A stretch of 64,000 nucleotides of DNA from Berberis thunbergii. Taxonomy: Eukaryota > Streptophyta > Magnoliopsida > Ranunculales > Berberidaceae. Under the pieces are notes generated by a model. It was not told where the DNA came from and did not search any database. It saw only the letters and a list, made by a program, of their open reading frames with translations. The translations under genes were made by a program, and so were the position numbers. Below are positions 2,275-45,117 of this stretch, piece by piece. Where the stretch lies: positions 124,001 to 188,000 of the forward strand of contig QNQO01008283.1 in the NCBI GenBank assembly GCA_003290165.1, given 5' to 3'. Within the stretch, counting starts at the first letter, position 1, and each line of letters begins with the position of its first letter.

Positions 2275-2279
2275 GCCTT
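2275..2279. repeat. Target-site duplication GCCTT (left copy)
   Basis: GCCTT lies directly before the 5' LTR and again at 10108-10112 directly after the 3' LTR. A perfect 5-bp duplication fixes both ends of the Athila-like element and shows it is one insertion event. Confidence 0.95.
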
Positions 2280-3865
2280 TGATAGGGGCATAATTATGCT
2301 ATTTTTAGTACCATATTTCTATATGTATTACTAGCTATTATTTGTTAATTATGGTACTAATTGCTATTTTCATGTTTGTGTAGGTTTCTAATTACAATAC
2401 TTTAAAATAAAAGCAAATTGGCAATTTAGGAATACTAATTGCACAAGGACTTCACACCAACAAGGACTTCAAACCAACAAGGAAACCACACAAGCAAGAA
2501 AACCACAGAAAGAAGAAAACAAGAATAAAAAGGGGACATACCTGGCTTTGAGAGAGGATCCATTGACCCATCCAGTAGAGCATCCCATCCGCCGCCTCCA
2601 TCATCTCCTTTTCCTCCCTGATCATCCTCGCACGAAAACCCTCACCCCGGGTCTCTCTCTCTCACTGTCCCTTATCGCAATCTCATCAGAACCACCTCGC
2701 CAGTAGCCACAGTCTCTCTCGTTGTCCCTTGTCTTCGCTATCTTCACCGTCCGCATCTCCTTCTCACCTGATCTCTCTCTTAGCTGATCGTCGTCCCTCC
2801 ATCGCCTGCTTCATCTCTCGCAATCTCTCGTCATCCACACAACCGAAGCAGCGATTGAAGAAGGGAGCTAAGGAGGCAGAGAACGAACAGCTCGCGAAGT
2901 GAGCAAGGAGGGTGAAGGATAATTTTGCGCTATTCGCACCCACTTCTGCTCAATACCACCACAAAACAGTGTTTTGTTTTCATCTCTAAACATCTATTTC
3001 TCTTAATTTTAGTTTGATTATTGATTATGGATTACTGTTTAAACATAATTAATATGTCTAGCTAAACTCCTCTTAGTTAGGGGTGGATTCGAAACCCCGA
3101 ACATGTGCTTTATAAATTAATTGAATTTAATCTTTCTTGCTATTAGTGATTGTGTTTTGCTTAACTGCTTTATAGAGAACTTTTCCTTTTATGTTTGTTA
3201 AGGTGGCCAACTTAGTAAGCATGCTAGGATCTGGGGCTAGAGTATAGGAGAATTTCACCTAATTGTTATGATTCTGTACTCACAAGTAGTAAATACCAAG
3301 GAACGTTGGTAAGGTTAAGTCAAAACCTAGGCAAGAACAAGATGTTGATCATACTTGTGATTACCTAGTCAGTGTTCATATTTTCCACAAAACTTAATGA
3401 TCTTAGATTGCTATTTAACTTGCGATTCCTGTTTAGATAGCATGATAAGAATAAGTTGAAAGCGACGCTTAGTTTAATTCAACGAACTTGGGAAAATAAT
3501 AAGATTAATGCAGTGCGGTCACGGTTAGTCTTGAGCATTGTTTCTCACGAGTTAGCAAGTGATTATTGAAGATTAATTTATAAGCATATGTTTGGTGTGC
3601 GGAGATAAAACCCTTAGCTAATTTCTCATCTTTGTCATCTCTTTAGTTTATTATCTTTACATTAATTTTCGTAGTTATTTTCATAATTTAATTTAGAAAA
3701 TCCAATCCGCTTTTATTTAATTAATTAGGTTGTTAGTTGTCTTTTAATTATTATTAGTGTAATTAACAAGCCCTCTAATCCCTGGTCTAGAACGATCCCT
3801 ACTTATTCTATACTACAAATCACAAAGCAGGGTATTAAGTTGTGTGCTACTAAAATAGCGCATCA
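2280..3865 (+). repeat. Athila-like 5' LTR
   Basis: 1,586 bp, begins TGATAGGGGC and ends GCGCATCA. Nearly identical to 8540-10107. It carries an extra ~18 bp caused by a repeated ACCAACAAGGA-type unit near 2457-2485. A pyrimidine-rich CTCTCTCT section lies around 2640-2830. Confidence 0.95.
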
Positions 3866-8524: not shown

Positions 8525-8539
8525 AAGTGTGGGGGAATT
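8525..8539 (+). other. Polypurine tract of the Athila-like element
   Basis: AAGTGTGGGGGAATT directly precedes the 3' LTR start TGATAGG. Position and composition are those of the plus-strand primer of gypsy elements. Confidence 0.9.
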
Positions 8540-10107
8540 TGATAGGGGCATAATTATGCTATTTTTAGTACCATATTTCTATATGTATTACTAGCTATTA
8601 TTTGTTAATTATGGTACTAATTGCTATTTTCATGTTTTTGTAGGTTTCCAATTACAATACTTTAAAATAGAAGCAAATTGGCAATTTAGGAATACTAATT
8701 GCACAAGGACTTCACACCAACAAAGAAACCACACAAGCAAGGAAACCATAGAAAGAAGAAAACAAGAATAAAAAGGGGACATACCTGGCTTTGAGAGAGG
8801 ATCCATTGACCCATCCAGTAGAGCATCCCATCCACCGCCTCCATCATCTCCTTTTCCTCCCTGATCATCCTCGCACGAAAACCCTCACCCCAGTTCTCTC
8901 TCTCTCACTGTCCCTTATCGTAATCTCATCAGAACCACCTCGCCAGTAGCCACAGTCTCTCTTGTTGTCCCCTGTCTTCGCTATCTTCACCGTCCGCATC
9001 TCCTTCTCACCTGATCTCTCTCTTAGCTGATCGTCGTCCCTCCATCGCCTGCTTCATCTCTCGCAATCTCTCGTCATCCACACAACCGAAGCAGCGATTG
9101 AAGAAGGGAGCTAAGGAGGCAGAGAACGAACAGCTCGCGAAGTGAGCAAGGAGGGTGAAGGATAATTTCGCGCTATTCGCACCCACTTCTGCTCAATACC
9201 ACCACAAAACAGTGTTTTGTTTTCATCTCTAAACATCTATTTCTCTTAATTTTAGTTTGATTATTGATTATGGATTACTGTTTAAACATAATTAATATGT
9301 CTAGCTAAACTCCTCTTAGTTAGGGGTGGATTCGAAACCCCGAACATGTGCTTTATAAATTAATTGAATTTAATCTTTCTTGCTATTAGTGATTGTGTTT
9401 GCTTAACTGCTTTATAGAGAACTTTTCCTTTTATGTTTGTTAAGGTGGCCAACTTAGTAAGCATGCTAGGATCTGGGGCTAGAGTATAGGAGAATTTCAC
9501 CTAATTGTTATGATTCTGTACTCACAAGTAGTAAATACCAAGGAACGTTGGTAAGGTTAAGTCAAAACCTAGGCAAGAACAAGATGCTGATCATACTTGT
9601 GATTACCTAGTCAGTGTTCATATTTTCCACAAAACTTAATGATCTTAGATTGCTATTTAACTTGCGATTCCTGTTTAGATAGCATGATAAGAATAAGTTG
9701 AAAGCGACGCTTAGTTTAATTCAACGAACTTGGGAAAATAATAAGATTAATGCAGTGCGGTCACGGTTAGTCTTGAGCATTGTCTCTCACGAGTTAGCAA
9801 GTGATTATTGAAGATTAATTTATAAGCATATGTTTGGTGTGCGGAGATAAAACCCTTAGCTAATTTCTCATCTTTGTCATCTCTTTAGTTTATTATCTTT
9901 ACATTAATTTTCGTAGTTATTTTCATAATTTAATTTAGAAAATCCAATCCGCTTTTATTTAATTAATTAGGTTGTTAGTTGTCTTTTAATTATTATTAGT
10001 GTAATTAACAAGCCCTCTAATCCCTGGTCTAGAACGATCCCTACTTATTCTATACTACAAATCACAAAGCAGAGTATTAAGTTGTGTGCTACTAAAATAG
10101 CGCATCA
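8540..10107 (+). repeat. Athila-like 3' LTR
   Basis: 1,568 bp, TGATAGGGGC to GCGCATCA, followed at once by the TSD GCCTT (10108-10112). Differs from the 5' LTR by scattered substitutions and a missing ~18-bp repeat unit. Confidence 0.95.
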
Positions 10108-27642: not shown

Positions 27643-27823
27643 TCAGTATTACCAGCACAATGTTTCCTTGATTTATCATCCGTTTTACCAACAAAAACTA
27701 AATTCCTTGTTTAAAAACCTTTAGCTATGGGGATGCCTCCACAAACCTGGTAACAATTTTTTCCCTTGTTAAATGTGTATTTTCAACAAAAATTTGATTA
27801 TTTTCAAGGATACCACTTCTAAG

Positions 27824-27990
27824 CCGTTGGTGTGTTTGCCACGGCTAAAAACCGTGGCTATAGTGCCCAACGGCTTAAAACCGTGGCTAAAAAAGGCTTG
27901 GCCACGGTTCTAAACCGTTGGTGTGTTTGCCATGGCTAAAAACCGTGGCTATAGTGACCCACGGCTTAAAACCGTTGCAAACGTGCACGT
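27824..27990. repeat. Left subterminal repeats of the CACTA-type composite
   Basis: A ~88-bp unit occurs twice (27824 and 27912), each beginning CCGTTGGTGTGTTTGCCA and containing the self-complementary GGCTAAAAACCGTGGC. This is the motif class found at 41065-41520 and 43985-44160. Confidence 0.85.
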
Positions 27991-28147
27991 GTGTTGCACG
28001 TGAAGGTGTGGAGAATTAGGTCGATTTCAGGCGGGTGAAATTTTGCGAAATTTTTTTTCTTCCCGCGCGTTCCCGCTGCATCTCCCCCTTTTCTCAACCC
28101 TTTGCTTCTCCATCTCCCGCTCCATCTCCCCCTTTTCAACCCTTTGT

Positions 28148-28798
28148 GAAAAAACCCTAAAATTTCAAGGAGAGGGAAAGAGAGAATGAGAAGGAGAAGG
28201 AGAAGGAAAGAGAGAGGGAGAAGTCGAGCAACCCAAGCAGTGTCTGTGTTTGTACAAGCAACAAAACGCGATGGGGTTTGGCCATCTAGCCATTCGAGCT
28301 TCGAGATCCTCCTCCTCCTTCGCAGCCTTCAATCGAGGAGTTTCTCTTCATCTTCCAATCACCATGGGGTTTGGCCATCTCTAAACTTTTTCCTTCAATT
28401 TAGGTTTTTATTCGTCAACTATGATTTCCTTTCTTGTTATTGATTTGAGCCATCTTTTAATTCAATTTTTTATTTTATTTTATTTTATTTTTTCAACTGT
28501 GAAATGATGGAATTGGTTTTGATCAGATGAGACGGCGAAATGGGAAAAGATAACATATCTGGGAATCGGTTCTTGCACCATCTTGGCATTCTACAATTTG
28601 TCCAAGGGTCATCCCCACTTTGAAGAGCCTCCGGTAAGTCTTTTACTAATTATTTTCAATTGTATGACTGTGTTTCTTATTTTGGAAATGTAGCTAGCTC
28701 GTCTCTTTAACTTTGTATATTAATCACGACGTCGTCCGTTTGATGAATCTTGCAGGCATACCCTTATTTGCACATCAGGAACAAGGAGTTCCCCTGGG
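28148..28798 (+). pseudogene. COX6A: Cytochrome c oxidase subunit 6a fragment (promoter/leader to exon 3)
   Basis: Exon 2 (28532-28633) encodes TAKWEKITYLGIGSC and LSKGHPHFEEPP. Exon 3 (28756-28798) encodes AYPYLHIRNKEFPWG. Splice sites GTAAGT and TTGCAG are intact. These are the conserved core of plant COX6A, a small inner-membrane subunit of complex IV. The likely exon 1 ends at 28368 with FSSSSNHHG, comparable to the mitochondrial presequence end, and joins exon 2 in frame. A telo-box AAACCCTAA at 28151-28159 and purine-rich leader (28168-28223) suggest that the original 5' region was taken too. The last part of the protein after PWG is missing. Confidence 0.82.
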
Positions 28799-29902
28799 GT
28801 AAGTTTAGATTTCTATATATATATATATTTTTTAATGTTTTAAGCTCATTGAAAATTGAAAACTTTTCATCTATTAAGCTTAATATTGTAATGGCCTACT
28901 GAGAATAAAATCTATTGAATTTGGGTACATGGTTGGTGCACTAAGTAGTATGATATGATAGAATTTTAAGTTAGATATCCAAAGTTTTGTGCTCCCAATT
29001 CTGCATGAATTCCTTCATTTCAATAATCTTGTGAAATAAAGCACCATTTCATGCTTTCATATTTTTTTTCTTTTCTTTAATATTACTTGTCCCCCATCTT
29101 CCCATAGATCGTCGAAGTACCTCCAAAACAAATTAAGTGAAAGATTATATAAAGTTAATATTTGCGGTTTGTTTGACCCAGTGTCATCATTATCACCTGT
29201 GTAACAATGATATGCGTAGTCGGCTACACCTACATGTGTCCTTGTTGGACTCGTGTATGAATGTCAAAAACATCAACACTGAGAATTCTCACTACTTGGG
29301 ATCCATGCAAATGGAGTGCATAGGTTTTCAAATGTACGATCATTCTACTATTTATATTGGAATTGAAAAGGCACCCCAGGTCTTCTTCTTCTCCTTCTCT
29401 ATTACCCCTTTCTCTGTCTCTCTATTGCTTGGTTTGGTTTGGGTTCCATTTCTCTGTAAGTCGCAAATTGGGTGATTTGATCGAATGGGTTAATTGGAAT
29501 GTTGGAAGAGATGCAAACCCAGTGCTGGAAAGAAGGTTAGATCTTCTCTCTTTATTTATTTTCAAGTTTTAATTTTTTTAGTACTATTTGGGTATAATAT
29601 TTTTGTTCTAATTGTTGTTCTTTGTTTCAGATTTTGGAGAAGTTGTTGAAGAGGGGTGGAAAGCTTAAAGGTTTTGTCCTTGTCTCTCTCTCTCTTGTTC
29701 TTTCTCCACTGAATGTTTGTTTTCATGCTTTGTGCATTGCTTTTTGTTTAAAATTAGAATTTGGGTATATTTCAATTTGTAAAATTGATCAATCTGTACC
29801 CTTGGTTTTTTGGGGTTCTTGTTTAGTTGTTAAAGCTTAATGGGTTTTTTTTTTGTATGAAAATGATTTGATCTTGTTTGGGTTGTTTGTTTTTGTGATT
29901 AG
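28799..29902. other. Stretch between COX6A and PLPBP fragments
   Basis: No recognised gene. At 29462-29535 and 29632-29671 exon-like pieces (EWVNWNVGRDANPVLER and ILEKLLKRGGKLK) with plausible splice edges could be from one unknown protein; I cannot name it. Includes the first copy of a 55-bp direct repeat (29361-29415). Confidence 0.45.
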
Positions 29903-30043
29903 AAGACCAAGCCATTCTCCCTCATTCGCCAAGTCTATGATGATATTGCTGGGCATCGATGTTTTGGAGAAAACTATGTGCAGGAGTTAATTGAAAAGGC
30001 ACCCCAGGTCTTCTTCTTCTCCTTCTCTATTACCCCTTTCTCT
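29361..30043 (+). repeat. 55-bp direct repeat flanking the PLPBP exon
   Basis: Bases 29361-29415 recur at 29989-30043 (AATTGAAAAGGCACCCCAGG and onward to CCCCTTTCTCT). The repeat covers the last codons of the PLPBP exon and its intron start, so the exon end and donor site have been duplicated 628 bp upstream. Confidence 0.92.
29903..30007 (+). pseudogene. Pyridoxal-phosphate homeostasis protein (YggS/PLPBP) exon
   Basis: The 105-bp exon reads KTKPFSLIRQVYD and GHRCFGENYVQELIEKAPQ in one frame, the N-terminal signature of the YggS/PROSC family, a PLP-binding TIM-barrel protein. It is bounded by AG (29902) and GT (30008). A short extra insert (DDI in place of one residue) disturbs the VYDAGHR motif. 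Only this exon is present, and its end is duplicated at 29361. Confidence 0.82.
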
Positions 30044-30324
30044 TGTCTAAAACCAAATGCATGGTTTCATTGATTTTATTAGGGTCAAGGTTCATTCCCA
30101 TAATTCTTCATCATCTTCAAATGGTCGAATCATGTTAGCATGATAAAGTAGAAATAGATCTTCATCCCACTCACATAAAGCCCTTTCATTTTTATTTGTT
30201 ACTTATATCAATAGGACACATGTTAGCATGATAGAGTAGCATCGATACAATTGGAATATATTAAATGGTTGAGGATCCGCATGTACTTCCTCAATATTTT
30301 TTCTCCTTTCTTATCAGAACTAAA

Positions 30325-31640
30325 AATTTTCAATGCATAGAGTACAAAATACATCTATTAGCATGAATCCAATCTCTGCCTAATAAAGTTATAAAATTAA
30401 GTGCACCATCTATGACAAAGAATGTTTTCTCTGAATGGTTTACTCCTAACTATTATTTCTAATGGCACAATTTTTTGGCCATCGTTTTATCTTTCCAATA
30501 ATCCAGAGATAGTAATCCTGGTTGTCACTAACTCAACATCTTGTTTATTTATTTTCTTCGAAGTATTAGTAATAATGACTGATGCATCATTGTCTACTAA
30601 TGCCATGTTTTAAAAGTTTTCCATTAAACCCTTTGATAAATAGTGGTTTTACATTTAACCATTTCTTGAGTTGGTTCTTCATAAGTATAAGGCAAGTTGG
30701 CAGAAGTGAAATAAAACTGTGGAGTAGTCACCTCTTCACTCTCATTCAATCAAATCTCTAAATCATCTGAACCAACAGGAATGTTCTCCATTTCCTTAAT
30801 TCTCCCTTGCAGCAAATGTCTAGCTAATGTGGTAGCCATGTTTTTCCAAGTCAATGAGCATATCTAGCAACAAATCATTTTGTAAACCTGTGTTGACATC
30901 TTCCTTTATTTTTCCAAGTTCCATGTACTCCTCCATGTCATCTCTAATAAACCTCGGATTTGGTTTATTAGAAACAGTCTGCACATAAAGTTTTTTTTTT
31001 TTTTTTATTCCTCCTGTAAGTCCATGTCAGTGCTGAACTGGGAGTAGGAGATTTCAACTCAGTGACACTCCATTTGGTTTAGGCTTCACAAACTTGTGTT
31101 TATCCTTAATAGATAATGCTTGCTTGCTTTGGACTATCATTGGATCCTGCAAAATAAATCAGTCAGGTACACCCAGTATTAATCCTTTGGGTGGATGTTT
31201 TGTAGTTCCAGGCCTGTTTATTAAGGTTTTTTGCCTTTGATTTTGCTCTAATTTGACTTCATGCAATCTAGGCCAGCAATGAAGCCCATGCTCAGTCTTT
31301 TAGAAATAGGTTTGTTGAACTTAGTTTCCCTAGGTAGGACTAATTGTGGTTCATTAACTTTCATTTTCTTGTGACTTTCTTCACCTGGGAATTCACAGCC
31401 ACAAGCTACACATTAGTGTTGAACACAAATGTTGGTTCCTTTAAATACTCCCTTGTTGGACTCGTGATTTACATTACCAAGATTCACACGCATTTCATTG
31501 GCCGTTTGGAATGTATCCTTGACAATTCCCATTGTTGAGTCTGAAAACTTGAGTTTTTCCTTTTTTCAGCAACTCTTGAATTTTGTTCCTAGAATCAAAA
31601 CATTCATTTGCAGTGTGAGACCAGGAATCATATCATATCA
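30325..31640 (-). pseudogene. Degenerate Ty3/gypsy gag-protease remnant
   Basis: On the minus strand, 31620-31560 encodes HTANECFDSRNKIQELL, like a gag C-terminus after the knuckle. Around 30620-30570 is ALVDNDASVIIT, resembling the protease active site with altered residues. At 30425-30330 is FFVIDGALNFITLLGRDWIH, the conserved protease end. Stops and frame changes are frequent. It lies inside the composite, opposite to all the host fragments. A T-run sits at 30990-31006. Confidence 0.7.
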
Positions 31641-31644
31641 TACA

Positions 31645-32061
31645 CACAGTCACTGACACCCATAATTGGTATGATAGGCTGGTGGTCAAATTTGATTCAT
31701 ATTGGTATATGTATGTCATATTTGATTCAAGTTTAGCACTAACTATAGATATGTAATTGCTACATGCATGTTGTTCTGGTTCTCATTTTCCTCCCTTGTC
31801 TTTGCACACAGTTAAGCAACTTCCCATGTATCTATTTAAACATTTATGCCATTTGACATGTTTTTGAGAGTTTACATATTTGCATTGTAATAGAAATCTT
31901 TCCACCTCAATGTTTACCAATATAAATGATCATATCTTTCCACCATTTGACCTATACACCATATTTTGGATTCGAAAGCAAATTTTCTTGTAAATTAAAT
32001 TTTATTTTACTTCTTTTCTTTATTTTTATTTTACCATTTGACCTAATGCTGCACTTTCCAG
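31645..32061. other. Non-coding stretch before the DOHH exon
   Basis: AT-rich, with short repeats of ATTTGATTCA (about 31689 and 31712) and CATTTGACC (about 31943 and 32034). No exon recognised. Probably captured intron sequence. Confidence 0.5.
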
Positions 32062-32132
32062 AGTGCTCAAGGATGTTGAAGAGCATCCTATGGTTAGACA
32101 TGAAGCTGCTGAAGCACTTGGATCAATTGCAG
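32062..32132 (+). pseudogene. Deoxyhypusine hydroxylase exon
   Basis: The 71-bp exon encodes [20 protein letters not shown] plus SIA. It is bounded by TTTCCAG and GTAACAG. This is a HEAT-repeat segment of DOHH, the di-iron enzyme that completes hypusine on eIF5A; the HE pair is one of its metal-binding motifs. Only this exon is found. Confidence 0.82.
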
Positions 32133-32833
32133 GTAACAGTTGATATATATATATATATATTTTGTCGCACATACTTCCAGGAAGCTAGTATCCATTCCTA
32201 CAATGTGCTATGTCATGCTTCAATAATTTTCATAGCTGAATAAAATGTTCACTGCTCACTTGGCAAAAGGTGAGTATACTGGTGCAAATTGTGCTAAATT
32301 AGTACATATTACAATTCTTTGACTAGAATATGCTACTAGGCATGATTCACTTCGGTTTAGACCAATCATTCTAAAAATGGGCATGCCTCTGAAAACTTAT
32401 TGTATAATATTTCAGCTGCTTCAGTAATTGCTTCTCCCTGTTGTTAGACTTTTATCCTATACTATTATACATTTAATTTGAAAAATTGTAAATTAATGAT
32501 TATAATGGATCTTAATTCTTAAACTACAATCATTGCACGAATATACACATAACACGCATACGCAGAAAGTTAGTACAAATATAATGCAAGGAGAATAAAC
32601 AAATTTGTTGAGATGACGAGTACAGGGTTATGTACGCAAGGTTTAAAGATCTCAGCTCAAAACCATCTCGAGTTGTGAATGTGCAAGTCCAAGTGTACTT
32701 AAATTAGATTGAGCCCTCAGGACTTGGATCTGACCTATCCAAGTTTTACCTTTGATAGAATACCTACAGTGTGTTGCATTGTTAATTTCTTTCATGCATA
32801 TGGTTTTAACTAGCTTTACAATCTTTGAAACAG

Positions 32834-33622
32834 ATTGGTCCTTTGCGTTGTTGGCCAGGGGTGTTATGCCTTTCGAGGTCGATTGGAGACATGGATGTTG
32901 GCGAATTTATAGTTCCTATACCCTATGTTAAACAAGTTAAGGTGCGTGTCTTTTTCTTGACTATACATTGATTTTCTTGGTTGATGATTTTCGATTTGTC
33001 AAGACCACAATTCTATTCTTGAATTCTAGTTATTTTATTTTATTTTTATATTTTAATCTTAAACAAGATTTAATTAATGAAAACAGTAACTCAGTGAAAG
33101 GGGAATCACTGAGAATCTGAGCAAATTCCTTTTATTTGTAAGTGACCGAATTGTTATATGGAATTGCTGGTCTTTATTGAGTTTCAAATCCTAACAGCTT
33201 CGTTGGTAAATCAGCTGTCAAATGCAGGAGGAAGACTTATAATCGCTTCTGATGGTATCTGGGATGCCCTACTCTCTGAAAAGGCTGCAATATCTTGTCG
33301 TGGATTGCCTGCAGAGCTTGCTGCTAAGCAAGTTGTTAAGGTGATTTAAACGTTAAGGTGATTTAAACCAGTGACTGCTTTTTCTGGTTATTAATGCGTT
33401 CACATGAAGCCTTTCTATCCTGCATTGAATCACATGAAAATCTCCAACTTCTTATGGGTTTTCATCAATGAGGGGCTAGTAGTTTGATACGCTTGTTGAA
33501 TAATGGCTTGGAACTTATTTTGATCAAGTTTGGTGGCTTACTAACAGGAGGCATTGAGGACTAGGGGGTTGAAAGATGACACAACCTGCATTGTAGTTGA
33601 TATAATTCCTCCAATTCTCTAG
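32834..33622 (+). pseudogene. PP2C-type protein phosphatase, last three exons
   Basis: Three exons with canonical splice sites and matching phases: 32834-32941 (WPGVLCLSRSIGDMDVGEF), 33215-33340 (GGRLIIASDGIWDALLSEKA) and 33548-33622 (LKDDTTCIVVDIIPPIL, stop TAG). They cover the C-terminal half of a plant PP2C, including the SDGIWD and DDTTC metal-binding motifs. The N-terminal catalytic part is missing. The frame is open across all three exons, so decay has been slight since capture. A 7-bp tandem copy of AAGGTGATTTAAAC lies just after exon 2. Confidence 0.88.
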
Positions 33623-34141
33623 TAATAAATAATAATAATGTGTTAAACTAGAATAATGCAAATTTGTTATATTGGAAATATAAAACATAAAATGTAAAAA
33701 AATGCGTCTAAACAATCCCATCCTTGGTCTCACTTATTCATGTTACTAGTGTCAGTGAACACATTGTTGTCATGCCTGTATTGTTAATTTTTACTTATTC
33801 ATGTAAATTTTACTCCTTGAAGTTGATATATGGTCTTTTCTTGATGAAATTAGACGGATGCAGTGTTATCTTTCCTAGTTACATCAAGTATTAGCTCACA
33901 TGTTCTCTGCTAGCCATGGAGAGTATAATTGTTTTCGTAAAACTCACATGGTGCCATATATAGATCTGTGTAAACACTATGTCTACTGAATAAGATCAAT
34001 TACAATTCTCATTGAATAATTTGGATTTCTTTCATGATGCTCATTGAATAGTTACAATTCTCATGTTTCTCAATGATTAATCAGTTGCTTGGCTATTGAT
34101 CAATATCTCAATGATTAGTCAGTTGCTTGGCTATTGATCTG

Positions 34142-34464
<323 letters not shown>

Positions 34465-34569
34465 TAAATTTGTTCCTTCTTTTAATTTTTTAACACTTGT
34501 ATTATTACTATTAATGCCCATACTTTTTTTGCTAAAACAACACCTCGATGATCTCGGATAAGAGCTCCA

Positions 34570-34698
34570 TACCCCCCTGTTGAGCCTTGCATTGAGCCAT
34601 CTGCTCCTGCTGCTGAAACAGCTTCATAACCCCCTGTTGAGCCTTGCAGTGAGCCATCTGCTCCTGCTGCTGGAACAGCACCTGTTTGAGCCTTGCAG
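34570..34698 (+). repeat. ~56-bp tandem repeat, two and a half copies
   Basis: CCCCCTGTTGAGCCTTGCA followed by GAGCCATCTGCTCCTGCTG occurs at about 34576 and 34631, with a third partial (TTTGAGCCTTGCAGT) at 34686. It lies directly before the pyrophosphatase exon. Confidence 0.8.
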
Positions 34699-36015
34699 TT
34701 AGATTTACTCATTGAGATTCCAAAGACAGTTGAGGCTACAAAGATAGATTTGCCAATTGAGATTCCAAAGCCAACTGAAGCTCCGAAGGCACCTTATGAT
34801 TTTCACCATTCATCCACCCATCCACCTCTTAATGAAAGAATTCTTTCTTCATTATCCCGGAGATCAGTTGCAGCTCATCCTTGGCATGATCTTGAGATAG
34901 GTGTGTATCACAGTGAACTATAGCAACTCTTTAGGATTTTAGTTAAAATCATACATTTTCAAAACATTATTGAATGGATGTTGAAGTTTTAGATATTCCT
35001 TTACTGTGTGTCTTCATATAATGTTATTAATTATGGTGTTTAACTTTATCAGGACCTGGAGCTCCAATTATCTTCAATTGTGTAAGCACTCTAAATGTTA
35101 TCCTGGAGAAAATTTTGATAGTTGGTTTCACATTAAGTTCTTGAAGAGTTCTTTTGAATTGCTGCAAGTTTATTTGCTTCATCGTTTTTTGTTTTTGTTT
35201 TTGTGGCATATACACCTTAAATCGAAATGGGCAACTTAAGTGTGTTTTGTCACTAGAATGACATCTAAAAATGCTCTATATTAGATCTTCAAATGTTTGG
35301 ACGCACTCTCTGTACTCCATGTGTATGATTTCTAGTGTTTGTGTAATGTTTCGTCTACAAGATGCTATTACGAAAAAGTTGCAGATGCTTTTGATTCTCC
35401 ACTTGATTGTCTAATGGATTGTGAAAGTACTTTAGTAAACGAAATTACATCCATGCACTCAGGACCAGAACCCCTAGGGCTTGATTAGTGTTCCTACTAA
35501 TTGGTAGGTATAACCAGGCTCCACTCATGATGATGACATATCTTTTAGTTTTAAAACTTAATTCAAAACATGATCTCAAATTTTCTTTTACCTGACCCAC
35601 TTGGTATTGCTTGATATCCCAGAGGCTACGAGTATGAACAATTGTCTATATTCAGTTGTATGGGTTCCTTTCTCCTCCGTTCCCTTTAGTTCTCTATTTA
35701 TGTAAATGCTGTTAGCGATTTTTGTCTAAACGTATTCATCTTAGATGACTTCTGCAGGTGGTGGAAATTGGAAAGGGGAGTAAAGTAAAATATGAACTGG
35801 ACAAGAAAATTGGTCTTATCAAGGTAATCAAGAAACTTCTACTCTTTATTCCCTCGCCTTCTTTTATTTATTGTGTATTGATGATGGGTGTTGATTTACA
35901 TGTGCAGGTTGATCGTGTATTGTACTCATCAGTTGTGTACCCCCACAACTACGGTTTCATCCCCCGTACTCTCTGTGAGGACAGTAACCCACTGGATGTT
36001 TTGGTCATAATGCAG
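34699..36015 (+). pseudogene. Soluble inorganic pyrophosphatase, four 5' exons
   Basis: Exons 34699-34900 ([20 protein letters not shown]), 35053-35081 (GPGAPIIFNC), 35758-35823 ([17 protein letters not shown]) and 35908-36015 ([34 protein letters not shown]). Splice sites are canonical and phases agree, giving one open frame. It matches plant family I pyrophosphatase (PPi to 2 Pi) up to about the middle of the domain; the exons with the later metal-binding aspartates are missing. The N-terminus has a repeated IEIPK segment not typical of the enzyme. Confidence 0.9.
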
Positions 36016-38433
36016 GTATATTGATGATCAGCATATTTGTACTGAGTTCATTTGCAATGTATCGTACTTCATAAATGCATATAAATTATGAATTTCGTTA
36101 ACTGAGTGAAACCTGAATAACATATGACTAAAGAGCAAATATCAGAAACTTTATTGAATTTTTCCAAGTAATTGAGCCGTTGAGGTTGCACTTTCTCTAC
36201 ATATTCATCCCTGATTGGCTGTCTCACAGTCGTCTTTTGGCTGGACTAGTCGGAAATTTTACTTACATGACCTATCAGTATGATTATTGTGTGAAACTGT
36301 CATCTAGTTTATACTTGGGGAAAACACACACACAAATATTACTGTGGATACGCGTTAGGCTGATGGACGATGTTGCGTCGCAGAGCGTCCTGTTGCTGTG
36401 CTGTGTTCTGAGCTGCTGCGATGCAGTGGCCTTCATGCGAACACGCTGCTGCGACACTCTGCAATATGGGTTTTCTTATTTATGTGAATACAATTGCTGT
36501 TTAGGTGCTTTTTATTGTTTGCGGGGATCATTTATACATGGGTTTTCTTATATTTGACTGCCTAAGAACAGGAATCTCACCTCCAAAAGAGCATGAGTGG
36601 AAATCTAGTCTGAATTTTCTTGACGAAATCTGTTGCAATTGATATTAGTACAATTTATACATGTTTGGGCTTTTGAAATGATTGATACATAGTTGTCATT
36701 TTCATAAGTTGCAATATTTTAATCTCAATATTTCTAGGTCTCTTATTGCTTTTATCTGGGTAAGTTTCAAGATTGGACTTTTATTGCTTTTGAGGGCTCT
36801 TCAATGAATGAATGTATCTCACTGTTTTATGATCTATGGTTCTTCTTCAGGTACTCTTAGCAACTATTTCAGGCTGAGATGTTTCAGATCGTCTTCACAA
36901 GAAAAGAAATATTTATCCAGAAAGGCATTCGAGCTTGCAGTTGGTGTTCAAGGTAAACCTAAACACAATCAAATCAGCTATAAAATTGGGAAACTGCATG
37001 ACAAGTTAAATTCGAAGTAATGTTTGTTGTCCCTGGAATTGATGTTGCACATACGTAAACTCAGCTACATAACCAGTTTGCATATCTTTTTAATGGAAAC
37101 TGCTCTAAATGAAGTCATTATATGGATGAATATTGTAACTAGCTTTTAACGTCAATTTGTGTCTCATTGTTATGCTTGTAATTGGAGTCTGAAATTTGGA
37201 TATTCAATTTTCTTGTTTTATAGAAGGACCAATTATGAGTATCCATTTGACATTCAAATTAACTTGACTTTGTTATTTACTTGGTCAAACACTACAAAGG
37301 CATCATTGCTGAATCGGTTTGGGGATATGTACCAATAACTGTGTTTTTAAATATGAAGTGGTGAACATGGTAATTAGAGTATACCAACCACCCTTTGGTA
37401 TTATCCACAATCTTGCTTCAACTTAAACCGTTTCCCCTCTGCAGATTGGTCCCATCCTGATTCATTACCACAGTTGAAACAAGTAGAGGTAGTTCCTGTA
37501 AGTTTTTATTATCTTTGATCATTCGCACAAGATTGCATATTTGAGGAAACCGCAATGAATATGTGTGGTTTTAATTGTTTGGAAATGGTGAAGTGGAGTA
37601 TCAATGGCGAACAGATAATCTGTTTTTTGGTCAAAAAACAAAGTTTTATTAGGCTCGATCTGTTTTCAGTCTGAAACAGAGCACATTGGGGACGTGTTTC
37701 AGCTGAGAATGCCTACTGCATTTATTTCACAAAACAGAGTGTTATTAGGCTCTATTTTTTGGCCAAAAACATAACTGATTGGGGGCGTGTTTCAGCTGCA
37801 GGGATCATGGGATGGGGAGGCTTTCTTCAGTTGGAGGAATTGGAGATTTGTTGACAACAATTGGTGCTTAGAAGAGGTTTGCAAATTTTGGACAATTCTA
37901 ATACATTCCATAGTTTCTCTGTCTACATCTTTTGGTTATGAATTACTGCTTCTGAACTTATTTGGTATTACATAATCTCAGTCTTTGTCAGATTCTGGAA
38001 CTGAAACAGGCAGCTTATATCAAGATTTGGTTCCACAATATACAGAGATTTATCCACATCTGACATTGGTGCTGATCTTGCATTGCTTGGAACCCCAAAT
38101 TCTGCAGAAACAAGAACAAAGTAGGTCAGTTCTTAACATTCTGTTTATGAATATGGGTTAAAAGTGAAGATAAGATAGAGGACTATATACTGAAGCGTGT
38201 CTTATGAAATATGTACTAGAATAAATCATGATATTGTAATCTTGTCCTAAATTCGATGGTTTCTACTATGGACTAGAATAAATCATGATATTATGATCTT
38301 GTCTTTGAGGCTGGATTGTTTACATGACGATAAACATTCAGTCTCTACAGATGGTTTCTAAGCAGTTGATCATTCTTAAATTTTCACTATGTTCATACTT
38401 CTTACTTGAATTCTTTGATGTATGCTGAACTAG
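36016..38433. other. Mixed stretch with unassigned exon-like pieces
   Basis: Exon-like segments at 36850-36952 (EKKYLSRKAFELAVGVQ), about 37444-37497 (WSHPDSLPQLKQVEVVP) and 37795-37877 (GSWDGEAFFSWRNWRFVDN) have splice-like edges but I cannot assign them. A GC-richer patch with imperfect palindromy is at 36370-36465. A ~100-bp imperfect repeat (TTATTAGGCTC, CGTGTTTCAGCTG) occurs at 37645-37705 and 37740-37802. The rest is AT-rich intron-like sequence. Confidence 0.4.
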
Positions 38434-38559
38434 GTTGGGTGCATAACAAGGTTGGTTCCACAGAAGGGTGTCCATCTCATTAGGCATGCAATATTTCGAA
38501 CAATGGAGCTAGGAGGGCAGTTTGTTCTTTTAGGTTCAAGTCCTGACGAGCATATCCAA
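38434..38559 (+). pseudogene. Starch synthase (GT5, SS IV-like) exon
   Basis: The 126-bp exon, open throughout, encodes VGCITRLVPQKGVHLIRHAI and MELGGQFVLLGSSPDEHIQ. It is bounded by CTAG and GTAATT. The sequence is the start of the C-terminal GT-B lobe of plastid starch synthases, closest to class IV from memory (class III possible). Only this exon is recognised. Confidence 0.82.
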
Positions 38560-40036
38560 GTAATTTTCCCTTAAAGACTTCAGTTTGCATGTTTTCTACA
38601 TTTCCTTTCAGATTGATCAAAGCACCAACTGCAACAATGCATGTCAAACCAAAGACTTATCTCTTTTATGTTGTATGTTGCCCACAAGTAGTAGAGTTTT
38701 CGGCTGATTTTTTTTAATATGATGGTTTCTCCACAATGAAGATCATCTTCACAAAAATTAGTCCGTTCTTACATAATCCTGAATTAGATTTTCATGTTGA
38801 TTATTGAATTATTTTGGTTGGTGTTACAAAACAACCATTTTGGCGTAGTGATTGGTCAGCAGTCTCATGTGTTGTTAAGTGGTTTTAGGAGGCTTCGATT
38901 GCTTCACTCCCGAACCTAACACTCTCTAGACCCAAACTTGGCGCCATTGATTATCTCTGCTCCAATTAAGCATTGTTTCTAAAGCACTTCATGCAACAGA
39001 CTCTAATCCGCACCTGCTCATTAAGACAGATAAACCGGGTTCTTAGAACTGGTTCTTTGTGATCTTGAAGACATCCATAACTGAAGAGGAGCAAGGCATT
39101 AAAAAAATAGATGCACTGGATTCTCTTATGGATGCTTGCAGAGGCTGCAAACATTATCCACCGAGATATGATGGTTATTTAATTTGGAGGCAGTGGGTAG
39201 AAGGTCCTCCATAGAAGTATTTTGACTCTTTCTGGAATTTTTAGCTTTCCAGATTCTAGGAAGTAAAGAGAGATTAAGAGGTGGATTTGATGTAGATGGG
39301 TCTTTTAGTGAGTTTAGCTTATAGAAAAAATCTATAACCTTTTGCCACAGAGAACTTGCCTGATTTAGTAGCTGATCAAACAGGAGTATCAACCAAGGAA
39401 TGTGATTTTGTGAAATTTCTGTTGCTTCCAGGAATCACCATTTGCAATGTTTCATGCTAACCATGGTATATATCTGTCTGTTGTGAGGACATCTCACTGC
39501 CCTCATTCATGGTATATATATGTTATTTCTCTTTTCCATACAATAATACATGCATCACTACATTGTTTGTATGTATGTGTGAGTTTGATGTGTACATATG
39601 TATGTGCAGATCTTGGGAAAGTTTTGTTGCACCGCCATCTTTTGGTGAGTTGCCACAGTGGGTTGTTGTGGGTAAGTCATTCTAACCAGTTTCAATGATT
39701 TTAGAGGAGTCTTTTTACCATATGATCAATAGTAGTTTCTAACGTTTAGTGAATTATAATTTTTGAATTGATATGGCTACATTAAATCATTTAGGATTCT
39801 AATTTATTCACTATCTCAGTGTATACAATCTCTACTTTTAGGTTTTACCGTTTTAGAGTCCCATTGAAGTGTTACATGTGGTCTGTTTTTTTTTTTTTTT
39901 TGGTTGGTTGTTGTTGTATGTATCTAGGCTGATTTTACAATTTTGCTTTGGGCTCTACTATCTAAGGCCAGCACTTGTCTTTTAGCTTCATATATGCTAG
40001 GAGTTGACTCTTATGTCTCCCATTCTTTCTTTACAG
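38560..40036. other. Non-coding stretch between starch synthase and OTU-like exons
   Basis: No recognised exon. AT-rich, with a T-run at 39885-39901 and a short open stretch (SWESFVAPPSFGELPQWVVVG, about 39610-39672) that I cannot place. Probably captured intron or intergenic DNA. Confidence 0.4.
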
Positions 40037-40234
40037 GTAATATATGGTAGGAGCTTTCATTACACTTACATGAATGAAATCCATAGTAATTCATATGGAA
40101 GTTCTAGCTCAAGTTTAAATAGCAGCCTTCAAGATACAGACGAAGATAGGACCATTGCTAGTATCCTGGCAGAAGAATGTGTTAAAGAGGGTGGTGGACT
40201 TGTGAGGCGGCTGTCTCATTTAGATTCTATCCCA
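40037..40234 (+). pseudogene. OTU-type cysteine protease (deubiquitinase-like) exon
   Basis: The 198-bp open exon has TTTACAG before and GTGAGT after. It encodes YGRSFHYTYMNEIHSNSYG and EDRTIASILAEE, then GGGLVRRLSHLDSIP. The second half resembles the segment just before the catalytic domain of plant OTU proteins (acidic-RTIA, RRLS.L..IP). The catalytic DGNC exon is not present. Assignment moderate. Confidence 0.6.
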
Positions 40235-41064
40235 GTGAGTCATCTCAACAACTAACACATTGTCAGCTCACGTTTATCTAAAATTGTCCCTCTTCATGAT
40301 TGGAAGTGCCAACTTCCCTTAGGTTTTTAGTTGTTTAATGTGATTTTGAAAGTATCAGTTGACGAAAGGTTTCATGTTTCAAAACTCAAAAAGTTATTGG
40401 AAGACCTTCATGATAGTAAATTGTTCGATTTAAATATTTGGAATTTTGTTAATTAATTTACTAGCACGTAACCCAAATGTCAAGAAGACCAAACCTTGAA
40501 GGATAAGAGACATGAAACAAGATTGACTAAATTTGTTTGAATATTGAATATGACTGATCAAACTGATCTTTGATTAGCTTGCTTCACTTCATTTTCTGGG
40601 TTGATTTGTTTCTTGATTGTGATCATTGTTTGATTATAATTCATTGTAAGACATCTCACAGGACTGCACCTTCTTGTTTCCAATTTTTTTAGGCTCATGA
40701 AGTTGACATTTTTTAATGAATGAAAGAATGAATACACACCATTTTATGATTACCTGGAGAGTTGTCTGCGACACAAAGCAGAAATGGTGATATTTGAAGC
40801 TGCTAAAGCAATAACAGAACTCAGCATTGCGTCTCTCGTAGCAGCAGCAACAGCATTGTTCCACTTTCTTTGTATTTGAGATATTTAAGTTTGTGTGTGT
40901 CATTGTATTTGAGATATTATTTGACTCAATGTAATACATTTTCTTATTAATTACATTACTTTGTCTCCATTAATTACATTACTTTGCCTCTATTATTTGA
41001 TAGATTTTGACTCAATGATTCAAAGTCATTTGATAGAAAAAAAAAAATTTAAAAATTAAAAAAA
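40235..41064. other. Non-coding stretch inside the right end of the composite
   Basis: AT-rich; TTAATTACATTACTTTG is repeated (about 40946 and 40971) and A-runs lie at 41036-41070. No coding evidence. Confidence 0.5.
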
Positions 41065-41541
41065 AAAATATTTGCCACGGTTTTAAACCGTGGCTAACTA
41101 TTGCAACAGCTAAAAACCGTGGCTACCTTGCCACGGCTTATAACCGTGGCTAGGTTTAGCCACGGCTAAAAACCGTTGCTATCTTGTTAGACACGGTTTA
41201 TAACCGTTGCTAATAACTACACTTTGTAACGGCTTGGAACCGTTGCTATTTTTGCCACGGCTTAAACCCGTTGCTATTATTATTGCAACGGCTTAGAACC
41301 GTTGCTATTTTTGCCACGGCTTAAACCCGTTGCTATTATTATTGCAACGGCTTAGAACCGTTGCTAATTTCTGAAAATCACGCCCACCATTCAAGTATAA
41401 AACCGTTGCTACAATGTTTAGCAACGGTTTATAGCCGTTACAAAGAATTTTGCGACGCCCCTGTAGTCCACGGCTCTTAGCCGTGGCAATGGCTTGCGCC
41501 CACGGCATAGAACCGTTGCTAATGGGGGTTTTTGGTGTAGT
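41065..41541. repeat. Right subterminal repeats and CACTA terminus
   Basis: At least a dozen short inverted motifs of the type GCCACGGCTTATAACCGTGGC and GCAACGGCTTAGAACCGTTGC. One ~68-bp unit (CGGCTTAGAACCGTTGCT) is repeated in tandem at about 41235-41365. The terminus TTTTTGGTGTAGTG (41528-41541) is CACTACACC in reverse. CACTA transposition uses such subterminal arrays as transposase-binding sites. Confidence 0.85.
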
Positions 41542-41559
41542 GTTAGCTCCACAATCTGT

Positions 41560-42060
41560 TCTTCTAACCTCCTTTGGGCTCTTAAATAATGTTCCTGCAT
41601 GAAAAATTTTAAAGATAGTCATAGTCCAAACAAAACGAAGTACATAAAACAAATAAAAACAAGAAAATAAACAATCCTCACATAATCAGGTGTATGATTG
41701 ACAAGTGCATTGTCTGCAAGACAGAGGGTCCATATTGTTTTGTTCTGACCCCGGTAATTTGTTAAATTTATCAGAATCCGAGTTCTCCAATTTTGTGACC
41801 TGCTTAAAAGGTTAAAACTGATCTCTTATGTCATCATCATCCTGTACAAATTAATCTGAAGTGGAAAAAAAGAAATAACAAATACTCACAGAAACAGGAG
41901 TGGACTGTCTGCAAGACAGAAGCACCATATTGTTTTGTTCTGTCTCAGATATTTTGTTAATTGTACCAGATTCTGAGTCCTCCAATTCTATGACCTGCAT
42001 AGAAGGTTCAACTTGATCTCTTGTGTCATCATCCTACGAATTAACCCGATCACATGTTAT
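41560..42060 (-). pseudogene. Duplicated exon-like segments of unknown protein
   Basis: Two related segments on the minus strand, around 41820-41700 (QVTKLENSDSDKF) and 42030-41890 (QVIELEDSESGTINK), each flanked by GT/AG-like edges. They look like a tandemly duplicated exon. CACTA elements often have a second gene (Ptta/TnpA-like) with such acidic C-terminal exons, but the similarity is too weak to assign. Another segment, RAQRRLEEQIVEL, is at 41585-41545. Confidence 0.35.
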
Positions 42061-42227
42061 TAAACTAACAATGTATAGAACCATCAAAAACATAGAAAAC
42101 AAATAAACTCACACCAGCAGGTGTATAACTTGTAACCGAGCACTGTGATGTTGATACTGAGCATTTTGACATTGATGCAACCTCCACAATGTCATTTTGC
42201 ATCTTCGATAAGTCAATGATTATATCA

Positions 42228-42387
<160 letters not shown>

Positions 42388-42591
42388 CTAATATCAGCCT
42401 ACATTGATTCTTTATTTAGGGGAAGCTAGACCAATATCTCTGAGACAAAATCCATGATCACCATGCGTCAAGTAAAAGCAATGCCAGTATCTGGAAAGCC
42501 ACTTACACACACCTATTTCAGCACTTGCACTCCCAGAAAATAGGTACCATCCATAAAATGATTATGGAACAAAGGTGGATAGTGAACATAC

Positions 42592-42949
42592 CGAAAAGCA
42601 GCTTCACGAGCGGCATCTCGAACTTCAGCTTTCTCAATTATCCTCTTCTGCATAACTTCCAAGGTAGAGCCAACAATAGACCTTGAATAAGCTTCTTGGT
42701 AGCCCTGCGCTTCTTCTTCACAGCCTCTGCAACAATGTCCTGCAAACATCACAAGTTCAATCCAATTACATAAATTAAAGAGAAATAAAATGCCACATAA
42801 AAAATGACGTTCAACTTGAATAGGTGACAACTATAAGAGATAAGCACCTTCTTATGTTGCTTTCTGTACATGTTAGTCCATGTAAGCTTCGATGGCTTGA
42901 GTCAGTTGTGGAAGTACCTATTGCATTTTGAGTTTGCAAAGAGGAAAAC
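42592..42949 (-). pseudogene. RPL24: 60S ribosomal protein L24 fragment, two exons
   Basis: Exon 42949-42848 encodes VFLFANSKCNRYFHN, a TGA where Arg is expected, then LKPSKLTWTNMYRKQHKK. Exon 42739-42592 encodes [16 protein letters not shown] and, after a one-base frame loss, [16 protein letters not shown] and [12 protein letters not shown]. Splice sites are intact. It matches eukaryotic eL24 from the middle onward. Both lesions make it a pseudogene. Confidence 0.88.
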
Positions 42950-43984
42950 CTACATTTATGAAATTGTTTAGAGTTTCATATTGTTATGATGCGAACATAT
43001 TAGAAAACTACATCACTCTTGTATTGGGAAACAAATAGTTCATATGGTATCTGTGAATGGGATCGAATAAATCTTATACCCTTTCAAGGGTAAATCTTTT
43101 GACCACTAAAACGACAGAGTTCAATTCTGAAGAACATACAATAAAGAATCATTCAATTCAAAACTTTCTGAAAGTTTCAATCTTAAACAAGAGATAAGTA
43201 CCCCATATCTCACACACAAAATTTTATATGGTATGCTCATACAACAAAATATTTGACATTCCCGCGATACATAATGTACACACAGTTTCAAGTCCTACAC
43301 ATCAAGTGCATACATAATGTACTTGCAATAAAACAAGTCTTATGGTTGAGCCTACTAGTTTCCATGGGACAACGATCTCAGAAAACTAAGATATACATTC
43401 TCGAAACAGAACACGTACATCTCAGAAAACAAGTCATATACCCAATCAAAATGAACCCTAACATCCAATCAGATCTAACAAGCCAAAACCCATGAAAAAT
43501 AACGAATACCCATTATGAACAATTATGATTTTTCAAACCCCACTTCAGTATAAAACGATTTCATTCAACTCTACATATCAAATCAGATCAGAAACTAGAT
43601 GATAAATGTTAAAACCAACTATAAAACATAAAACTAACACAACAAAAAGAGAACAGTGAAAGATAGAAGGAAAAACCCATATCAATAATCGAAAATGAAC
43701 TCACTTGAGAACCATTGTGGCTAATATTCTCTTCTCCTCTACAGTACTGGATTGAAATCACTTGTTATCTTCCATTAACTCTCTCTGAAGCTTTCTCAAG
43801 CTCCTCGATCTCTCCTCTGCGCCAAACCTCTCTCTGACTCTGATTTAGGTCAAAAAAAATTTCGCAATGACAGCGCCAAATTTTTTTCGCCAAAGCGCGA
43901 AACCTATTTCCGCCACCCATTTTCTCCAGAACGCGAAATCCACTCTCCAAATCACTCGCAGGAGCGCGGCACGTGCAAAACAGT
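42950..43984. other. Non-coding part of the second CACTA segment
   Basis: AT-rich to about 43700. Then a pyrimidine-rich, leader-like section on the plus strand (43730-43960) with repeated GCGCCAAA/GCGCGAAA motifs, which read on the minus strand could be the element's own promoter and 5' leader. No product recognised. Confidence 0.4.
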
Positions 43985-44172
43985 TTAGTTTAGCAACGGT
44001 TTTTTGCCATTGCAAAATATAGCAACGGTTTTTAGCCGTGGCTAATTAACCCACGGTTTAGAGCCGTGGCAAACTATTTTTGTAGCTACGGTTTTTGGCC
44101 GTGGCAAATAAACCAACGGCTTTGAGCCGTGGCCACCTCCCCGTAGCTAAACAAGCCTTTTGGTGTAGTGTT
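43985..44172. repeat. Subterminal repeats and terminus of the second CACTA segment
   Basis: Six or more motifs such as AGCAACGGTTTTTAGCCGTGG and GGCTTTGAGCCGTGGCC are shared with 41065-41520 and 27824-27990. Ends TTTTGGTGTAGTG; the bases after it are TTA, as after 41541. Confidence 0.85.
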
Positions 44173-44589
44173 AATAATGGAAGAACTCAACCCAAATCAT
44201 CAAGGATACTGAGGTATAATTAATAAAAATAATTCAGCCTCGAATCTTGAAATGATAGAGGTGCGGAAAAGCTCAACACCAAATACAAAACTCAAAAGCA
44301 TTTAATTTCTAACAATCCCTTGCCTGTTTTTATAGGCATGGCAACTAGAGGCGTTGTTTTGAGGAATGGTGAGCAATGAAGAAAATGAGGCATTCAACAA
44401 AAGAAGCCAATCATTAACCCAGACAATGATCCCAAAACTATACAGAACCCCAGCCAACAAATTTCTTCAGATGACATGTGTTCACATAGGACAACTGGAA
44501 GAGAGTCAGGATAATCATGATATGGTTGATCATCAATGTGATCATTTTCGTATGAAGGTTTAAAGAATACAAGAACAACGAACTCTTTC

Positions 44590-45117
44590 AAATCGTGGGG
44601 TATTGTCTTTGCATAGCCAAGGGTGTTGCAGAGACGCTCAAGCTGAACATGGCTCTCATTCTTATCCATGTATGTCGAAACACACTTACAAAGCTTATAT
44701 CAACATTTCTCAGTAGATTCTTTCCTTTTGAAGACAACATTAATTTCCACAAGGTAATTGCATTCGGTATTGTTATTGGGACTTTCCTCCATGTATTCAT
44801 GCATATGACCCATGACTTTCCACGGATAATTAGATGTCCAAAGGAAACTTTCATGGAGGTGATTGGTCCGAATTTCTAGTACGAGCAACCATCTTATATC
44901 CGCTTGGTATCTACTGTGCCAGGTACTACAGGCATCGTGATGGTCATCATCATGTCATTCTCCTTCACTCTCGCTACCCACTCGTTCAGGCGAAATGTTA
45001 TACACCTGCCAAAACCCTTTGATGCTCTGGCACACTTTAACGCCTTCTGGTATACACATCACTTGCTAATCTTTGCTTATATTCTCTTCTACATCCATGG
45101 CTACTTCCTTGTTCTTT
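44590..45117 (+). pseudogene. Respiratory burst oxidase (RBOH, NADPH oxidase) membrane-domain fragment
   Basis: A single frame encodes WGYCLCIAKGVAETLKLNMA, CRNTLTKLISTFLSR, FEDNINFHKVIAFGIVIG, then an in-frame TAG at 44878-44880, then TGIVMVIIMSFSFTLATHSF and HFNAFWYTHHLLIFAYI. This is the ferric-reductase transmembrane core of plant RBOH with the haem-ligand regions (HVFMH, YTHHL). The FAD/NADPH domain and EF-hands are missing. It lies outside the CACTA terminus at 44172, so it may be a remnant of a resident gene or another capture. Confidence 0.78.

Follow-up and report, generated by a model that had tools for sequence, protein, structure and literature searches.

A CACTA element carrying pieces of eight host genes, and its amplified relatives with exchangeable cargo, in Berberis thunbergii

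The window analysed here is the whole stretch of 64,000 nucleotides of Berberis thunbergii DNA (GenBank assembly GCA_003290165.1, contig QNQO01008283.1, positions 124,001 to 188,000 of the forward strand), to which all coordinates without a contig prefix refer. Between 27817 and 41543 it carries a CACTA element, denoted A, within which pieces of eight host genes, introns included, follow one another on the plus strand in the order COX6A, PLPBP, DOHH, PP2C, OPR, soluble pyrophosphatase, starch synthase 4 (SS4) and OTU11. We consider it very probable that A is a member of an amplified, non-autonomous Pack-CACTA family, with two distinct ends (alpha and beta), 3-bp target site duplications (TSDs) and varied cargo, in which all captures lie in the sense direction from alpha to beta. 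The features of A are as follows.

27817..41543, plus strand: element A, a Pack-CACTA holding pieces of eight captured genes (supported by relatives in which both termini and the TSDs are present, and by the allele-like contig C525)
27817..28088, plus strand: alpha-end region of A, a CCGTGGC-type array and leader (motif counts; 90-91% to type III elements, described below)
28527..28798, plus strand: COX6A, exons 28527-28633 and 28756-28798 with the intron (PDB 7jro, Pfam, splice sites)
29903..30007, plus strand: PLPBP exon (protein matches to yeast and E. coli relatives)
32062..32132, plus strand: DOHH (HEAT repeat) exon, 24 residues (4d4z)
32834..33622, plus strand: last three exons of PP2C, 32834-32941, 33215-33340 and 33548-33622, up to the stop codon (Pfam, 3.4e-10)
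34157..34439, plus strand: first exons of OPR, 34157-34182 (its end placed by eye) and 34299-34439
34697..36015, plus strand: soluble inorganic pyrophosphatase, exons ending at 34900, then 35053-35081, 35758-35823 and 35908-36015 (6mt1)
38434..38559, plus strand: SS4 exon (protein match, 8e-20)
39712..40531, plus strand: OTU11 deubiquitinase piece, intron-exon-intron, exon 40037-40234 (intact parent on contig C377)
41061..41543, plus strand: beta-end region of A, 21 motif copies, terminus ...TTTTTGGTGTAGTG
41544..41546, no strand: TTA target site at the right end of A, its left partner lost (single TTA in the copies of element B on C308 and C2)

All eight genes named in the initial annotation, which was made from the letters of the window alone, are represented on the plus strand in the order it gave, as judged from protein, Pfam and parent-gene matches. 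The COX6A piece matches the plant COX6A 7jro at 1e-28 (Pfam, 6.8e-6), the OPR piece matches artemisinic aldehyde reductase (9e-24) and OPR3 (5e-23), and the pyrophosphatase piece matches 6mt1 (6e-54). By E-value the best match of the SS4 exon is from Ranunculus (86%), with other plants reaching up to 91% over a slightly shorter span, and the OTU11 exon is 71% identical to that of Juglans across its length. Judged by sequence, the PLPBP and DOHH pieces are the weakest of A. The former scores 3.5e-4 against a yeast relative, from which it differs by a two-residue insertion, and 1.9e-3 against an E. coli relative; the latter comprises 24 residues of HEAT repeat only, matching 4d4z at 4e-12, but synthetic HEAT-repeat proteins reach comparable scores (1.6e-16 summed over repeats). 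Pfam alone assigned no family to the PLPBP, SS4 and OTU11 pieces, nor to the eL24 piece of the neighbouring element B. The splice sites, which had been described as intact, are so for the most part: with boundaries picked to fit, AG is present at 13 acceptors and GT at 13 donors in A, but no acceptor could be located for the first pyrophosphatase exon, and the donor of OPR exon 1 (GT at 34183) was placed by eye. Chimeric transcripts are predicted from A; a single chimeric protein from the COX6A, PLPBP, DOHH and PP2C exons is unlikely, since these exons when joined give no single open frame.

As initially annotated, the cargo lies between arrays of a CCGTGGC-type motif, with six copies in 27817-27990, 21 in 41061-41543 and none in the 13 kb between them (shuffling gave means of 0.78 for the interior and 0.045 for the right array), and the short subterminal repeats at the ends of A occur in both orientations. 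The ends of the family are distinguishable, alpha as CACTACACCAAAAGG and beta as CACTACACCAAAAACC, both with CCGTGGC-type arrays. The right terminus of A reads ...TTTTTGGTGTAGTG and is followed by TTA. No left CACTACACC terminus was found in the window sequence of A, where about 44 bp are gone relative to the complete left termini of copies elsewhere, and the window copy, being truncated there, is probably immobile now. The proposed CACTA-type flanks were thus confirmed for the right terminus and, in eight copies, for both ends, but not for the left side of the window copy. The leader at the left, attributed earlier to COX6A, is shared up to 28088, at 90-91%, with elements of type III, whose cargo is different, and so is part of the element end and not clearly of COX6A. 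An AT-rich stretch at 25.02k-27.81k, full of TTGTTGGTAA / TTACCAACAA-like motifs, abuts the truncated left end.

Perfect 3-bp TSDs together with CACTACACC termini were present in all eight family copies read at both ends, the duplicated sites being CTG, TCT, TTC, TAA, TAT, ATC, GTT and TGT. These include a copy of 13.6 kb on C1760 (TGT) and one of 8.8 kb on C5876 (TTC); for C1661, C5312, C1, C23 and C1760 the two ends were taken from separate stretches of one contig, and copies other than these eight were read at one end each. The terminal inverted repeats, CACTA... and ...TAGTG, are found in the eight copies, and the window copy keeps the right one only. With terminal inverted repeats, 3-bp TSDs, subterminal repeats and captured DNA of which one piece, OTU11, has been traced to an intact parent, A is a non-autonomous Pack-CACTA (CACTA, DTC). 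Several unrelated genes are therefore captured inside CACTA ends, as had been proposed, and the pieces are not separate insertions with their own boundaries, the cargo lying between shared ends with matching TSDs in eight of eight copies.

Two other classes of gene-capturing element were considered. Helitrons insert without a TSD, and the TSD of a Pack-MULE is 9 bp; a Pack-MULE is ruled out by the 3-bp TSDs and CACTA ends. Helitron ends had been raised at the outset as the alternative to a CACTA terminus, and a Helitron that gathered the pieces could now be hidden within CACTA ends, given that maize helA Helitrons hold 0 to 12 gene fragments acquired stepwise (passages of PMC3288121). However, both strands of A are devoid of Helitron-type 3' ends (hairpin plus CTRR-T; 10 shuffled sequences gave a mean of 0.2, and the 5' TC was not scanned), and the mobile unit bears CACTA ends and 3-bp TSDs, so that a Helitron origin is extremely improbable.

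A second, reversed member of the family, in which A is nested, had been omitted initially. This element, B, has the following features.

41544..44170, minus strand: remnant of element B, a reversed relative with an alpha-like end CACTACACCAAAAGG at 44170
42287..42366, minus strand: ubiquitin-conjugating enzyme (UBC) exon, borders by eye (Pfam, 1.4e-9)
42592..42739, minus strand: frameshifted eL24 exon whose borders were set by eye; a start-codon exon lies near 43715 (8azw, 1.5e-14)
43976..44170, minus strand: alpha-end array of B, six motifs (inverted match to 27838-28002)

The reversed end at 44170, CACTACACCAAAAGGC..., is like the alpha ends of the family and unlike the beta end, and, lying on the minus strand, the eL24 and UBC pieces are sense to this alpha-like end. 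Apart from the window and its allele, the B stretch is whole at a minimum of 14 places (among the best 40 of 3843 candidates), with an identity of 88-94%. In two of these copies, on C308 and C2, the sequence reads ...CTTTCTTAGCTCCACAATC, a single TTA standing in the position of the right end of A in the window; this is an empty site, and A therefore jumped into a copy of B. To the left of A, the continuation of B that would be expected has no match in the window, so a deletion or rearrangement would have taken that part of B together with the left terminus of A. We also considered A plus B (27.8-44.17k) as one composite element, since the left array of A matches the inverted array of B (77%) and the whole stretch is shared by C525, but relatives of A elsewhere are bounded by ends and TSDs of their own, and A is absent from the TTA site of the B copies on C308 and C2; on the evidence of that empty site a single composite was rejected, and we attach next to no probability to it. 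Just outside the alpha end of B lies an NADPH-oxidase (RBOH)-like pseudogene (44556-45116, plus strand), which a stop divides into two pieces without introns; their Ferric_reduct matches (1.6e-4 and 2.2e-5) are under the Pfam cut-off and RBOH was named by eye.

The capture is not unique to this locus. Searches of the same genome assembly (2.24 Gb, 11732 contigs) placed blocks of A at tens of sites, the counts being lower bounds among the best-scored candidates and including allelic contigs, so that places are not strictly independent. The search for other copies of the gene set, suggested initially, was positive: the stretch from COX6A to PP2C (28003-34300) was found at 27 or more contig places including the window, hence at least 26 others (best 27 of 3022). 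The window and four more places have it whole, and the remaining 22 have pieces of it that are 2.5 kb or longer. The PP2C stretch was present in 40 of 40 scored places (114 candidates) at 97-100%, and whole in 26 of them, 25 besides the window. For the OPR-pyrophosphatase stretch at least 40 places were found (413 candidates), 39 besides the window; six were whole (window and allele included), two began at 34473, 28 exactly at 34697 and four further in. The 39.55-41.31k block was found at 96.9% or more in 14 of 30 loci (window and allele among them; from the best 40 of 5672 candidates), and its carriers have 11 different right flanks. In this shared block the mean divergence among 11 sites is 0.98% (0.42-1.64%), with 0.82% between window and allele, and a divergence of about 1% marks the spread of the family as young, although no date is claimed. 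C525 was rejected as an independent copy because it is collinear with the window across 21018-46580, flanks included, as expected for an allele or a large duplication. A further copy of the pyrophosphatase piece lies about 54 kb to the right on the same contig (C8241:214052-215392), and another SS4 exon piece (aa ~670-739, with TAG) is repeated at many places, which may reflect amplification by other elements.

Aligning the pieces to their parent genes, as was recommended initially, succeeded for OTU11, for which the edges were fixed, but the other seven parents were not reached. Multi-exon OTU11 genes lie on C6/C4837 and on C377/C7626/C3606, and window positions 39712-40531 are 97.9% identical to the C377 gene over 824 bp of intron-exon-intron (97.6% to C7626, 85% to the C6 paralog), with sharp capture edges. 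The match to an intact gene across both introns shows that the OTU11 cargo was captured as genomic DNA from a gene that still survives. In the 2.1 kb read around the parent no CACTA motif was found. Among the best 150 of 178 candidates, OTU11 exon 1 (aa 1 to 57-65) occurs at no fewer than 91 places, three in contigs with other exons and 88 outside full genes, and the exon around aa 98-128 at eight or more.

Sister elements carry the same modules in other combinations. Those of type II (C674, C205, C1, C851 and C23 at 2.23 Mb) join the right module of A to a common but different left part, which in C674 holds pieces of CDT1 (CDT1_C, 4.5e-10) and of an M18 aminopeptidase (1e-10). Those of type III (C1661 and C5312) have the type I left end (270 bp, 90-91%), followed in C1661 by MetE (1.5e-32), an ABC transporter piece (5.2e-12), type II sequence and the module of A. 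In the sequence common to types II and III there is a CHD-type DUF1087 piece (1.2e-9), which we place at L034:3371-3487, the search output naming no member; IMS/REV1-like (0.18) and AP3B-like (0.13) pieces of type II were left uncounted. The 13.6-kb copy on C1760 contains the left block of A and the pyrophosphatase piece with about 2.5 kb extra between them. C5876 was rejected as a less-loaded ancestor and, from overlaps at its junctions, was read as a deletion derivative, so that it does not demonstrate stepwise gain. At C448 (L052) the beta end of another member lies 44 bp upstream of an alpha end in the same orientation, forming a tandem pair.

We propose that a CACTA transposase, which for a Pack-CACTA should be of the TNP2 type, would have acted in trans on the family, that pieces would have been added singly, probably via template switching in the repair of an excision or break gap, and that cargo blocks would later have been reshuffled among members. 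Template switching during gap repair fits short internal duplications such as that of the PLPBP exon end and intron start (~60 bp), repeated at 29361-29419. In the Catoni model, as told in passages of PMC8903248, adjacent Pack-CACTA insertions instead drop their inner ends, move jointly and trap the DNA between them. The same-orientation pair at C448, the resemblance of type III to a hybrid of types I and II, and the nesting of A in B with loss of an end all speak for such tandem fusion, but the absence of any subterminal motif between the arrays of A, and an OTU11 piece of just 820 bp with sharp edges, do not, and we consider it unlikely as the general explanation. It may account for the exchange of blocks rather than for every small capture.

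The uniform orientation noted for A holds and extends to the sister elements: across four cargo sets, the 15 captures with support all run sense from the alpha end (with each gene counted a single time, A contributes eight, type II three, one of them shared with type III, type III itself two and B two), their independence being an assumption. Scans of open reading frames (ORFs) covered the antisense strand of A and both strands of types II and III. The antisense ORFs gave one marginal Pfam hit in A (0.0093; 80 longest of 127) and one in types II/III (0.0086; 80 longest of 130), against six Pfam families and five genes, five with E below 1e-8, in the sense ORFs of types II/III (80 of 119). These contrasting yields make accident or detection bias a rather improbable cause of the polarity, but the captures are few, shared blocks may reduce them to fewer events, and the PPR piece captured in copies of grapevine Cactavine-5 is antisense (PMC2528002), so there is no sense-only rule for CACTAs at large. 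Under the proposed mechanism, transcription from near alpha through the cargo, with splicing, may have caused antisense pieces to be left untaken or lost. A stronger version, which we offer tentatively and think doubtful, is that in every cargo set only pieces sense to alpha were taken or kept, the element being a transcribed exon-collecting cassette whose blocks are swapped between members. Capture might then be tied to transcription of the donor or the element, or antisense pieces might be selected against, and read-through would run from a start region at alpha across spliceable host pieces to beta. Searches of the open-licence literature on the orientation of captured pieces brought up no CACTA family reported to capture in the sense direction only, which is not proof that there is none.

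Several observations weigh against our interpretation of A and its family. The window copy is without its left terminus; a parent was reached for one of the eight pieces, OTU11, and the borders of that piece show no clear microhomology. Exons of the SS4 parent lie on C5203/C37, but the captured exon was not in the 7.5 kb examined there (L054, L055). Some of the PP2C or pyrophosphatase places counted may be the parental genes, and C5876 compared with A has overlaps of 4 and 5 bp at two of three junctions and none at the third. The polarity rests on 15 captures, those of A were first found by reading the plus strand, B was unscanned in antisense, and the grapevine case runs counter to it.

Elsewhere in the window an apparently intact DUF789 host gene occupies 48.1k-52.0k on the minus strand (best E-value match Ranunculus, 69%). 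Together with the Ranunculus match of the SS4 exon it points, as far as best hits go, to a host in or close to Ranunculales. Direct repeats at 2278-3865 and 8538-10107, 98% identical, enclose a gag-like ORF (by eye), and together probably constitute a long terminal repeat (LTR) retrotransposon.

How DNA transposons capture pieces of unlinked genes is an unsettled question. This is a young family in which several cargo sets lie between the same ends, copies number in the tens and one parent or more can be located, so that the order, edges and orientation of captures can be read directly, and it offers a test of gap repair against tandem fusion and of transcription-linked capture. Amplified host exons of this kind can also confound gene annotation in the genome.

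Multi-gene Pack-CACTAs are already known, and what is unusual here is the number of genes, the amplification, the interchangeable cargo and the sense-only polarity. The following comparisons draw on passages of the reports cited. Tgm-Express1 of soybean is likewise a CACTA element with exon-intron pieces of five unrelated host genes, whose exons are spliced into chimeric RNAs as cassette exons (PMC1947982); A differs in carrying at least eight genes and in having blocks at many places with interchangeable cargo. Like A, Pack-TYPE elements are non-autonomous terminal inverted repeat elements with coding DNA from several loci, as in the Pack-CACTAs of maize and rice, those of maize holding the most distinct loci; most CACTA Pack-TYPEs are of low copy number, whereas blocks of A occur at tens of places (PMC8903248). 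On wheat chromosome 3B, 140 CACTA capture events involved 145 genes, about one gene per event, unlike A, and one captured gene was common to two CACTA families (PMC4290129). The maize helA Helitrons resemble the family of A in their stepwise capture of 0 to 12 fragments and in blocks shared between elements (PMC3288121), while A is set apart from them by its CACTA ends and 3-bp TSDs.

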